Positions 9,020 through 12,988 of a DNA stretch of 64,000 nt are shown here, in pieces. Under the pieces are notes generated by a model that was not told the DNA's origin, did not search any database, and was given only the letters and a program-made list of their open reading frames with translations. The translations under genes were made by a program, and so were the position numbers. The stretch's first letter is position 1, and every line of letters begins with the position of its first letter. The DNA comes from Gloeocapsopsis sp. IPPAS B-1203 (GTDB lineage: Bacteria; Cyanobacteriota; Cyanobacteriia; Cyanobacteriales; Chroococcidiopsidaceae). Location of the stretch: contig NZ_PEIG01000014.1 of NCBI RefSeq assembly GCF_002749975.1, forward strand, positions 62,001 through 126,000, in the 5' to 3' direction.

Positions 9020-9337
9020 TTACTCTAATTTTTCGAGCGCATCACGTACATCAACTAGATGATTGTTAAATACTTCTAGTGCAGCATCTAGAATATTAAA
9101 AATAGCTGGGTCACGTACAGAGTAAAATACATAGTTACCTTGCTTACGGCTTGTAACTAAATTGCGACTGCGCAGTACAGCGAGTTGCTGAGATACTGAG
9201 GATGGATCGGCTTGAACCCACTGGGCAATGCTATTCACGCTTTGTTCTCCCAGTCTTAAAGCATCTAAAATTTGAATTCGTACTGGATTGGATAATACTT
9301 TAAACAGATCAGCTTTAAAATAACTGGGCTTAAACAT
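9020..9337 (-). CDS. ArsR/SmtB-family winged-helix regulator
   Basis: 105 residues forming one winged-helix domain: LFKVLSNPVRIQILDALRLGEQSVNSIAQWVQADPSSVSQQLAVLRSRNLVTSRKQGNYVFYSV is the standard ArsR pattern. The metal-sensing ELCVCDL box of ArsR and the histidine-rich C-terminal site of SmtB are absent, so it probably senses something other than arsenic or zinc. It lies 90 bases downstream of the MBL-fold gene on the same strand, facing away from the SulP gene. Regulation of those neighbours or of itself is an inference. Confidence 0.85.
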   Translation of the reverse strand: MFKPSYFKADLFKVLSNPVRIQILDALRLGEQSVNSIAQWVQADPSSVSQQLAVLRSRNLVTSRKQGNYVFYSVRDPAIFNILDAALEVFNNHLVDVRDALEKLE

Positions 9338-9427
9338 TACTTACATACCTGTGTATCTTCAAAGCTTTTCAGTTTGCTTAACATTTTAGCATCTGAAAGC
9401 GCAAGTTATAACTTGAACAGAGTTAAT

Positions 9428-10303
9428 TTAATTCAAGTTTATATACTCAAATTCTAAAAATTGAGCAGCTGTGTTTTTGCGATCTTGAAGCTGAGTTTGT
9501 ACTTGTCGCAGTCTATCAAGATATTTAGTAATAGTAATAGTTCCTTCATCGTAAGTGGTTAACAGTTTTTTATGACTAACTCCTAATGGAGAACCGTGGG
9601 CATGACTTTGATATCGCTGCATCATTCGTGGTGAAATTGGTTGTTCCAATTCATTAGAAACGATAATAACTTCTGGTTTGCAATAATCAAAAACTGATGG
9701 GCAATAACCATCTTCTTTGCCATGATTAGCTGCTACAAAAATATTAACTTGTCGTAAGCGATCGCAAAAATGAGGCGACTTGAGAAGTGACAACCAACCT
9801 GCTGTTTTTAGATTACTTGGAAAAATTATATTAATATCTCGATAGGACAAAAAAGTCACCAAGCTCAAGTTATCAGCATTCTGAAATTCTGAGTAATTGT
9901 TCCAGAAAAATGAAACGGCGACATCATCAATTTTCATCACCTGAGTACTTCCTACTCCTGGAGGTGTATCTGACATAAAGGCAAGAGCATTTTTGAATCG
10001 CTGATTTAAACGTTGTAATCCTGGAAATTTTTCAGCATCAACTGAGGGGTTTGCAAGATAAAAATGAATTGGTAAGCAGTGTTCTAAAGACTGATTCAAA
10101 AGATCGGCAAAACCAGATAAATGCTCTTCTGTATAAGCAGGAACAATCAAGCATTCTAGAGAATTGCAATGCTTTTGCACAATATATTGTGAGGGTCTAA
10201 ATCCTGTGTGCGAATAGCCACTATCAAGAAGTATTGTCCGGTGATCGTCTGTAATCACAACTGCACAGAATCCGCGATCAACATCAAAAATTTTAATTTC
10301 CAT
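9428..10303 (-). CDS. ComEC-like metallo-beta-lactamase-fold protein with degenerate metal motif
   Basis: About 291 residues from ATG 10303; an alternative GTG at 10348 would add 15 residues and overlap the upstream small gene. The start MEIKIFDVDRGFCAVVITDDHRTILLDSGYS and later PSNLKTAGWLSLLK and FVAANHGKEDG follow the fold of ComEC/Rec2 C-terminal hydrolase domains and their stand-alone relatives. The usual HxHxDH zinc motif is replaced by AYTEEH, so only the last histidine is kept. The protein may therefore be non-catalytic or use other ligands. It probably forms a transcription unit with the 75-residue gene just upstream and perhaps with the ArsR gene. Confidence 0.65.
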   Translation of the reverse strand: MEIKIFDVDRGFCAVVITDDHRTILLDSGYSHTGFRPSQYIVQKHCNSLECLIVPAYTEEHLSGFADLLNQSLEHCLPIHFYLANPSVDAEKFPGLQRLNQRFKNALAFMSDTPPGVGSTQVMKIDDVAVSFFWNNYSEFQNADNLSLVTFLSYRDINIIFPSNLKTAGWLSLLKSPHFCDRLRQVNIFVAANHGKEDGYCPSVFDYCKPEVIIVSNELEQPISPRMMQRYQSHAHGSPLGVSHKKLLTTYDEGTITITKYLDRLRQVQTQLQDRKNTAAQFLEFEYINLN

Positions 10304-10344
10304 TGTCTTAATATATATCTCACAAAATGCTACAAATTGACATT

Positions 10345-10572
10345 TCACTCATAAACACAATCAAACGCAATTGTGTATGAAGCAGTAGGTCGTGCTTGTT
10401 TAAGAAACCGCAAGTGTGCTTCTGCTTTTGTCCGAGAAGAAAACTTGGCAACAACAATGGATTGCAGATTAGGAAGGTGACGGACAACATACCACACGGA
10501 AGTTGACCTCTCAATCTGATTTTGTAAATAACGCTCAACGTGATTAGACTCAACATCCATGTATCTGTACAT
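10345..10572 (-). CDS. Small conserved-looking protein upstream of the MBL-fold gene
   Basis: 75 residues. Two overlapping reverse-strand frames exist here. This one is preferred because its sequence (SVWYVVRHLPNLQSIVVAKFSSRTKAEAHLRFLKQARPTASYTIAFD) reads like a compact alpha/beta domain with an SPOR-like rhythm. Its stop at 10345 sits 42 bases before the ATG of the MBL-fold gene, so the two are probably cotranscribed. ATG 10560 is an alternative start. No family can be named with certainty. Confidence 0.5.
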   Translation of the reverse strand: MYRYMDVESNHVERYLQNQIERSTSVWYVVRHLPNLQSIVVAKFSSRTKAEAHLRFLKQARPTASYTIAFDCVYE

Positions 10573-10673
10573 CTGAATAAGTTAAATACGCTCAAAGGGC
10601 GCAGTTGACTTGGATATCGCTGCTTGCCACACCTTAGCATGGGTGCTAATCTATATGCAAGACTTTGCAGATA

Positions 10674-10694
10674 CAAAGATACAAAGATATATAT
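10674..10694 (+). repeat. GATACAAA direct repeats before the SulP gene
   Basis: Two copies of GATACAAA followed by the partial copy GATATA lie about 20-40 bases upstream of the SulP start, just before the GGAG ribosome-binding site. They could be part of a regulatory site or chance AT-rich repetition. The ArsR gene nearby is a candidate binder, but nothing in the sequence proves it. Confidence 0.35.
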
Positions 10695-10713: not shown

Positions 10714-12345
10714 ATGACACGAGCAAACCTTCTGAAGATTACTAATTGGCGTGGTGACTTGACTGGAGGGCTGACAGCAGCAATTGTGGCGCTTCCTTTA
10801 GCATTAGCATTTGCCGTAGCGAGTGGCGTAGAACCGAAAGCCGGACTTTACACAGCAATTGTGGCGGGGATTGTAGCAGCAGTATTTGGTGGTTCTCCTG
10901 TACAGATTACAGGTCCTACAGGAGCAATGGCAGTTATCTTGATTGGGATTGTTGCCAAGTACGGAATTGAAAAAGTGTGGCTTGCTGGGGTAATGGCAGG
11001 AATCATTCAAGTTGCCCTAGGAGTTGCCAAGCTTGGTAGGCTGGTCAAATTTATTCCTTATCCAGTTACTGCCGGTTTTACGAATGGCATTGCCATCATC
11101 ATTTTTTGCGGACAATTGAATAATTTTTTCGGTTTACATTTATCGCGCAGCGAACACTTTTTGCCAGGATTATGGGCAACACTAACGCATCTAGAGGGTG
11201 TCAATTGGGCAGCAGTAGGGTTAACCCTGATGGTAATTACTACCAAACTGCTTTGGACGCAGATTACTACTGGCATCCCAGGCTCATTAGTTGGTTTAGT
11301 CTTAGCAACAGCGATCGCTGCTTGGTTTGATCTCGATGTCCCCACCATTGGTTCAATTCCGCAATCATTGCCAATACCGCAGACAATTCCTCATTGGAAT
11401 AACTTTCAGCTTATTCAAGAACTGATGAGTCCAGCATTAGCACTAGCAGCTTTGGGCAGTATTGAATCGTTACTGTCGGCAGTAGTAGCAGATGGCATGA
11501 CTGTCAGCGAGAAGCACAATAGCGATCGCGAACTTATAGGTCAAGGTTTAGCAAATATCGTCGTGCCTTTCTTCGGTGGTATTCCAGCAACAGGAGCGAT
11601 CGCCCGTACAGCAGTTAATGTCCGCGCTGGCGGCAAAACGCGGCTTTCTGGTGTCATTCACGGCATTGCATTGGCAATCATTGTTTTAGTATTAGCTCCC
11701 TTAGCAGCACAGGTTCCTTTAGCAGCCTTGGCAGGTATTCTCATGGTTACAAGTGTGCGGATGATTGAGTGGGAAGCGATCGGGTTGTTGATGCGAGCAA
11801 CATACTCTGACTTTGCTGTCATGATTCTTACGTGGCTAGTGACTGTTTGTTTTGACTTAGTATTAGCAGTAGAAGTCGGCTTGATTGCCGCAGGAGCATT
11901 GTTTATTAAACGAATGAGTGACCTTAGTTTAGGTAAAGTATCTGAAATAGAAGCCTTTCCGCCTGGTATACCCTTGGAGCTAAGTAAACAAGTTGCTGTT
12001 TACCGAGTTGATGGTCCCTTATTCTTTGGGGCTGCTGAGCGCTTTGTGACTTTTTTGCGCGACGAACCAGAAGTAAAATACTTGATTTTACGGTTGCGAT
12101 TTGTGCCTAATATGGACACTACTGGACTTGTTGCATTAGAAGACATTTACTATGACTTAAAACGACGCAACTGTCGTTTGCTACTAAGTGGTTTGCAACC
12201 CCAGGTAAAGCAAATGCTAGAACGTAGTGGCTTACTCGACAAAATAGGTAAAGAAAATTGCTTTGAAACTACTGATGCTGCAATTTGTGCGCTGTCTCCT
12301 GAACTTGGATGCCATCAAGAGTTAGTATCTGTTCGTGAGAACTAA
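10714..12345 (+). CDS. SulP-family anion (sulfate or bicarbonate) transporter with STAS domain
   Basis: 543 residues. Ten or more hydrophobic segments cover residues 1-400, starting with RGDLTGGLTAAIVALPLALAFAVASG, the SulP signature; GGSPVQITGPTGAMAV and the ATGAIARTAVNVRAGGKTRLSG loop also match. A cytoplasmic STAS domain follows from about residue 420 (VAVYRVDGPLFFGAAERF, then FVPNMDTTGLVALEDI). It is the same family as the cyanobacterial Na+/HCO3- carrier BicA but belongs to a different subgroup by eye. The next gene is an exported carbonic-anhydrase-like protein, which favours bicarbonate over sulfate as substrate; this is inference. A GGAG ribosome-binding site precedes the ATG. Confidence 0.9.
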   Translation: MTRANLLKITNWRGDLTGGLTAAIVALPLALAFAVASGVEPKAGLYTAIVAGIVAAVFGGSPVQITGPTGAMAVILIGIVAKYGIEKVWLAGVMAGIIQVALGVAKLGRLVKFIPYPVTAGFTNGIAIIIFCGQLNNFFGLHLSRSEHFLPGLWATLTHLEGVNWAAVGLTLMVITTKLLWTQITTGIPGSLVGLVLATAIAAWFDLDVPTIGSIPQSLPIPQTIPHWNNFQLIQELMSPALALAALGSIESLLSAVVADGMTVSEKHNSDRELIGQGLANIVVPFFGGIPATGAIARTAVNVRAGGKTRLSGVIHGIALAIIVLVLAPLAAQVPLAALAGILMVTSVRMIEWEAIGLLMRATYSDFAVMILTWLVTVCFDLVLAVEVGLIAAGALFIKRMSDLSLGKVSEIEAFPPGIPLELSKQVAVYRVDGPLFFGAAERFVTFLRDEPEVKYLILRLRFVPNMDTTGLVALEDIYYDLKRRNCRLLLSGLQPQVKQMLERSGLLDKIGKENCFETTDAAICALSPELGCHQELVSVREN

Positions 12346-12424
12346 ACAACTAAATGACCTGTAATTTAATCAGTGCCATACAAGCTTATTTCTTTTTAGA
12401 GAAACATTTATACTAGATTTCACA

Positions 12425-12988
12425 ATGCAACAAATTAGCGGCTGTGCCTGTAGTCAACCTCATCAATTTCCTCGTCGTCATTTTTTGCGATCGCTCTTAC
12501 CTGTAATTGTTGTTCCTGTTTTACTAAAAACCTTACCAGCTAGAGCCGCAGAACATCAGGCGAAAGCATTAGTACTTAGTTGTATTGATTTTCGCTTTCT
12601 AGAGACAGAGCGCTATTTCTTGTCGCTGCAACATCTGAGTAATCAATATGATTGGACAGCTTTAGCAGGCGCTTCTCTAGCATTATCTGGTTTTCCCCAT
12701 ACTGCTGAGGCTGAGGTATTTTGGGATCAACTAGAGTTGTCTCACAAGTTACATCACATTACAAAAGTAATTGTCTTAGACCATCAAGATTGTGGAGCAT
12801 ATGCTAGTAAAATCGATCCTGAGTTAAGTAGCGATCGAGAACGCGAACAACAAGTTCATGGAGATTACTTAAATCGAGCTTATTGGGAAATTCGCAAGCG
12901 ATATCCTGATCTCAATATAGAGCTTTATTTTGTAACTCTTAATGCTGAAGTTCAGGCTGTGATGCCTACACAATCAAGTCTCAGCTAA
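12425..12988 (+). CDS. Tat-exported beta-carbonic-anhydrase-like protein
   Basis: 187 residues. The N-terminus carries a twin-arginine signal (PRRHFLRSL at about 16-23), a hydrophobic stretch and an ARAA cleavage-like end near residue 42. The mature part has CIDFRF (Cys53, Asp55, Arg57) and HQDCGAY (His120, Cys123), which are the zinc ligands and Asp-Arg dyad of beta-carbonic anhydrases (CxDxR, then HxxC). The protein is shorter than most beta-CAs, and the text between the motifs is diverged. It interconverts CO2 and bicarbonate if active. It follows the SulP gene by 79 bases on the same strand. Its stop overlaps that of aroE on the other strand. Confidence 0.75.
   Translation: MQQISGCACSQPHQFPRRHFLRSLLPVIVVPVLLKTLPARAAEHQAKALVLSCIDFRFLETERYFLSLQHLSNQYDWTALAGASLALSGFPHTAEAEVFWDQLELSHKLHHITKVIVLDHQDCGAYASKIDPELSSDREREQQVHGDYLNRAYWEIRKRYPDLNIELYFVTLNAEVQAVMPTQSSLS

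Follow-up and report, generated by a model that had tools for sequence, protein, structure and literature searches.

A recurrent cyanobacterial gene pair for a SulP-type carrier and a β-carbonic-anhydrase-like protein with a Tat leader: a candidate carbon uptake module

A gene for a SulP/SLC26-type anion carrier and, downstream of it, a gene for a β-carbonic-anhydrase-like protein (hereafter CA) predicted to leave the cytoplasm by the Tat pathway form a recurrent two-gene unit in cyanobacteria and are not neighbours by chance. We analysed this pair in the window, the whole stretch of 64,000 nucleotides from Gloeocapsopsis sp. IPPAS B-1203 (genome G000; 5.9 Mb, 57 contigs), where the positions that the earlier note had given for the two ORFs were exact (Table 1). 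The boldest reading, to which we give a probability of roughly one in four, is a two-part cyanobacterial carbon uptake module in which a Tat-exported β-CA of family PF20393 would work with an H+-coupled, DauA-like SulP importing HCO3- together with H+, under a non-thiol ArsR repressor and perhaps with the cysteines of the leader's n-region as a checkpoint. The arsR gene, a ComEC-like gene, a putative operator and the Cys-rich n-region are features absent from the earlier note.

Table 1. Features of the locus, numbered from the first letter of the window.
Feature	Position	Strand	Basis
SulP/SLC26-type anion carrier with STAS domain, 543 aa, DauA-like subgroup	10714..12345	+	PF00916 and STAS matches, site mapping
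Tat-exported β-carbonic-anhydrase-like protein (predicted), PF20393, 187 aa	12425..12988	+	Pfam, orthologs, AlphaFold model matched to β-CAs
Tat leader: CAC n-region, twin Arg 17-18, hydrophobic stretch, predicted cut after PARA (residue 41)	12425..12547	+	Sequence
C53-I-D55-F-R57 codons (zinc Cys and Asp-Arg dyad)	12581..12595	+	Invariant in orthologs
H120-Q-D-C123 codons (second zinc motif)	12782..12793	+	HxxC in every ortholog
ArsR/SmtB-family repressor, 105 aa, no Cys, divergent from sulP	9020..9337	-	PF01022 and HTH_metalloreg; adjoins this SulP in many loci
Stand-alone ComEC-like metallo-β-lactamase-fold protein, metal motif degenerate	9428..10348	-	Structure model match
Putative ArsR operator 5' of sulP, CTTTGCAGATACAAAG	10663..10678	+	16-bp motif recurrence
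Second motif copy 5' of arsR, CTTTGAAGATACACAG, 14/16	9349..9364	-	Beats 100/100 shuffles

Recurrence of the SulP-CA pair and its losses

In a census of 386 cyanobacterial genomes, the PF20393 CA was found in 27 and this SulP subfamily in 26, with 23 of the latter scoring above 990 bits. Both occurred together in 14 genomes against 1.6-1.8 expected, which rules out chance adjacency (Fisher p ~1e-12, the genomes not being independent; 8 genera and p 3e-5 when the association was counted by genus). In all 14, SulP was encoded directly upstream of the CA on the same strand, so the pairing pointed out in the earlier note is recurrent; one of these genomes, G011, belongs to another order, and two more pairs were found in records outside the census (L006 and L007). 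The spacing, 79 bp on the same strand in the window, ranged from -4 to 983 bp, and several pairs were separated by 3-6 bp or overlapped. A response-regulator ORF lies between the two genes in G305 and a CA fragment in G262. A SulP-CA fusion is ruled out, as two separate genes were found in every locus. In L050 (3230-3478), a partial copy of the CA gene's N-terminal part separates sulP from the intact CA gene.

The pair is not obligate. This SulP is missing from 13 of the 27 CA genomes, so the CA has to be functional in its absence as well, and the CA is missing from 12 of the 26 SulP genomes. Two lineages have lost sulP and retained the CA gene: in G. crepidinum (L004, 5465-6074), a 2.97-kb deletion has fused the ends of arsR and sulP, now remnants beside an intact CA gene, and a sulP remnant precedes an intact CA gene in G153. 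In the CA tree, in which few forks are well supported, SulP-linked genes are scattered and include the deep G011 branch, a pattern consistent with an ancient link that was lost several times. Furthermore, the CA is under purifying selection, with a dN/dS of 0.13 between the window and G. crepidinum; this value is similar to that of neighbour genes, and part of the divergence may predate the G. crepidinum deletion.

These losses bear on a reading in which the CA has a job of its own in the periplasm or thylakoid lumen, as an EcaB-like enzyme, and SulP is an optional neighbour. Retention of the CA under selection after SulP loss and the many CA genomes without this SulP agree with it, as does EcaB (slr0051) of Synechocystis PCC 6803, an external β-CA with a Tat-type leader that is mostly thylakoid-associated (PMC11360081). 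However, the adjacency seen in every co-occurrence, the distant G011 included, points to a joint function at least in those genomes, and we regard a wholly independent CA as rather unlikely. No recurrent alternative neighbour was seen in the 13 genomes with the CA and without SulP, where the neighbours varied. In one Gloeocapsa genome with no SulP at the locus (L008, 4762-6531), the CA directly follows a phosphoribulokinase-like gene, as read by eye.

The carbonic-anhydrase-like protein and its Tat leader

The window CA matched PF20393 (Pro_CA_2, 'putative carbonic anhydrase') with 42.7 bits against a gathering cut-off of 30, which all 27 cyanobacterial members found also passed, and matched only part of the classic β-CA model PF00484, at 18.1 bits against a cut-off of 25.7. 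A search of NCBIfam profiles returned zero matches, and a phmmer search against PDB sequences returned chance matches only, so that a fold search was needed. The AlphaFold model, built on only 7 sequences, had medium confidence (pLDDT 69); every PDB match that it yielded at E <= 0.001 was a β-CA, with TM scores of 0.42-0.55. As the earlier note had reported, Cys53, Asp55, Arg57, His120 and Cys123 are all present, and we found them invariant in a seven-sequence alignment; the twin arginine, CxDxR and HxxC are kept in 30/30 distinct cyanobacterial sequences. The nearest named relative, from Gloeocapsopsis crepidinum, is 89-90% identical. The motifs and the model matches together indicate that the protein has a β-carbonic-anhydrase fold, and the fold and the complete set of active-site residues make it likely that it is an active carbonic anhydrase.

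The β-CA fold is also that of COS and CS2 hydrolases. The PF20393 protein could accordingly be another zinc hydrolase of this fold, tied to sulfur and not to carbon supply; the family is only a 'putative' CA family, the PF00484 match is below the cut-off, and the partner SulP may carry sulfate. Against this stand the invariance of all five zinc and dyad residues and structure matches that are ordinary β-CAs, and we consider a hydrolase improbable. PF20393 was named in no paper found in our literature search.

The twin-arginine signal claimed for this protein is borne out by PRRHFLRSLL, a hydrophobic stretch and an AxA-type cut between PARA and the following A; these features of a Tat substrate were identified by eye and by pattern matching. 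RRx[FLM] was found in 29 of 30 cyanobacterial orthologs, the remaining one having RRSA. Export of the CA-like protein is thus very probable from its leader; in cyanobacteria, Tat substrates may end up in the periplasm or in the thylakoid lumen. We also observed that the n-region, short and variable though it is, has at least one Cys ahead of the twin arginine in 30/30 cyanobacterial sequences and at least two in 29, often as CxCC. Two other Tat-like leaders from the same loci, a small control, have no Cys. Our guess is that this Cys-rich stretch may serve as a checkpoint for zinc loading or for export. The stretch spans 12425-12472 in the window and is also present in Azospirillum homologs (GCCH or similar).

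The genome of strain IPPAS B-1203 lacks an alpha-CA, and the only PF00484 protein that it encodes is CcaA-like, which leaves the PF20393 protein as its sole exported CA candidate of these classes. In a check for a trade-off with the alpha-CA EcaA, the latter was found in 41 of the 386 genomes and in 1 of the 27 with the PF20393 CA, against 2.9 expected, these being small numbers. When EcaA was expressed in S. elongatus, no physiological effect could be discerned (PMC11360081), which speaks against the module. What external carbonic anhydrases do in cyanobacteria is still undefined (PMC11360081, PMC10096703).

The SulP carrier and its candidate regulator

The carrier belongs to SulP/SLC26 (PF00916, 292.7 bits; STAS, 73.5 bits). 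It scored 310.9 bits with the NCBI equivalog for BicA (cut-off 880) and 444 bits with that for DauA (cut-off 614), and was 39% identical to E. coli DauA and 33% to the BicA of its own genome. Of the six residues that make up the Na+/HCO3- site of BicA (PMC13249358), this SulP shares T69, G300 and A301 with BicA (BicA numbering), together with the family and the STAS domain. In contrast to BicA, D258 is replaced by E, T262 by S (A in two) and T302 by I in all 28 SulP loci (26 genomes and two extra records), and the subfamily has Arg at position 304; the corresponding residues of the window protein are T69, E251, S255, G294, A295, I296 and R298. The BicA of the same genome, a separate gene on contig C26, keeps all six site residues. 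Membership of the window SulP in BicA is ruled out by score and by site residues, and membership in DauA by score. The view that it lies outside the classic BicA subgroup was therefore upheld, with three of the six site residues replaced in all relatives.

The window SulP has E, I and R at BicA positions 258, 302 and 304, as do E. coli DauA and four plasmid SulPs; DauA differs in having no CA neighbour in E. coli. A Glu at the coupling position is likewise found in AtSULTR4;1 (H+/sulfate) and, by site mapping, in SLC26Dg (H+/fumarate), and AtSULTR4;1 also has the Arg. Neither carrier is known to have a CA partner. AtSULTR4;1 depends on this Glu, E347 at BicA position 258, for proton-driven sulfate transport, and its Arg393 stabilises sulfate (PMC8298490); Arg393 was matched to R298 of the window SulP by motif order, not by direct alignment. 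These residues argue against a BicA-like mechanism and suggest that the SulP is probably an H+/anion symporter and not a Na+-coupled BicA.

Bicarbonate as the substrate is the weakest step of the scheme, a guess that we hold at a little under even odds. The SulP may instead be an H+-coupled carrier of sulfate, C4-dicarboxylate or another anion, with the CA only buffering pH or CO2 at the outer face or with both proteins co-expressed for one stress. The DauA-like character of the protein agrees with such a carrier, as do the Glu at the coupling site and the Arg where SULTR4;1 has its sulfate-stabilising residue. However, a single Arg position does not fix the substrate, and the recurrent downstream CA partner is left unexplained; we therefore see another anion as possible and yet unlikely.

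The divergent ArsR protein matched PF01022 with 37.5 bits and HTH_metalloreg with 80.8 bits (cut-off 55). It contains no Cys, and 11 of 12 other full-length relatives have at most one. The order ArsR, ComEC-like, SulP, CA is repeated in L005, L006 and L040. Elsewhere, too, arsR lies beside this sulP, in some genomes on the same strand. The model of the ComEC-like protein had the ComEC domain structure 9ic4 as its best match (E 2.5e-12), and L006 carries two copies of this gene.

The operator-like motif CTTTGCAGATACAAAG was taken from the window, where its score of 16/16 is by construction. It recurs with 15/16 matches 5' of sulP in L040 and with 14/16 in L090 and L094, and 0/100 shuffles were as good; the same holds for the copy before the window arsR, CTTTGAAGATACACAG. 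The motif is strong in few genomes only, and many others are without it. A k-mer search for operators did no better than shuffles, and only the palindrome lead from it held, in part. The layout and the shared motif suggest that sulP is probably under the control of ArsR, which read-through would extend to the CA gene behind it, and regulation of the CA together with sulP appears quite likely.

Proposed mechanism and relation to known systems

In the proposed mechanism, the ArsR repressor would control sulP and then the CA gene by read-through. The CA-like protein would fold and presumably load zinc in the cytoplasm, leave by the Tat pathway and, outside the membrane, most likely interconvert CO2 and HCO3-. 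External hydration (CO2 + H2O -> HCO3- + H+) would give the carrier both an anion and a proton, which SulP would co-import; if all steps hold, symport of both products would in effect be CO2 uptake driven by the proton gradient. We prefer CO2 hydration as the link between the CA and the carrier because it is the most economical.

The earlier note had proposed periplasmic conversion of CO2 and bicarbonate for uptake. The exported β-CA-like protein predicted from its sequence and the recurrent SulP partner stand in its favour, whereas the Na+/HCO3- site of BicA is altered and resembles that of H+-coupled SulP/SLC26 carriers, and nearly half of the CA genomes (13/27) do without SulP. External CO2/HCO3- conversion feeding SulP uptake is plausible as a whole scheme, with the odds somewhat against it. 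The conserved gene partner and the candidate regulator make the role of one external-CA family directly testable. Should this SulP prove to import bicarbonate together with protons, it would add another type of mechanism to those of BicA, SbtA and BCT1 and would be useful for engineering carbon uptake.

An exported β-CA is in itself not new, since EcaB is known. EcaB and the window CA are both of the cyanobacterial β-CA type with a twin-arginine leader, but the EcaB-like Tat proteins that we found (L150, L155 and L156) belong to PF00484 and have CADSR or CSDSR, whereas the window CA belongs to PF20393, has CIDFR and about 190 aa, and is encoded beside SulP. The difference in family rules out that the window CA is EcaB. 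SulP-carbonic anhydrase fusions carry a cytoplasmic CA that belongs to the classic family. Such fusions share with the present locus a physical link between SulP and a β-CA, which here is a separate PF20393 protein with a Tat leader; they are attributed to Felce and Saier 2004 as cited in PMC12596568. External Tat-leader β-CAs and SulP-CA links are thus already known, and what is new is the present combination with a candidate regulator; our literature search found no paper on an ArsR-SulP-CA unit.

Relatives of single components were found in other settings. Tat-leader 'carbonic anhydrase' homologs on Azospirillum plasmids are 33-37% identical to the window CA and have a Cys-rich n-region, CMDYR and HRDC, but, unlike the window CA, they have no adjoining SulP. 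ArsR is encoded beside a related SulP in Cohnella and on two Streptomyces plasmids; Cohnella also encodes, 2.5 kb away in divergent orientation, a protein annotated as a carbonic anhydrase that has a CSDSR motif and a leader resembling that of lipoproteins. Near plasmid relatives of the SulP, a YjdM/alkylphosphonate-type protein is encoded in 4 of 5 records (L109, L111, L115 and L116, not L108), and the SulP relative in L108 has an ArsR gene on both sides.
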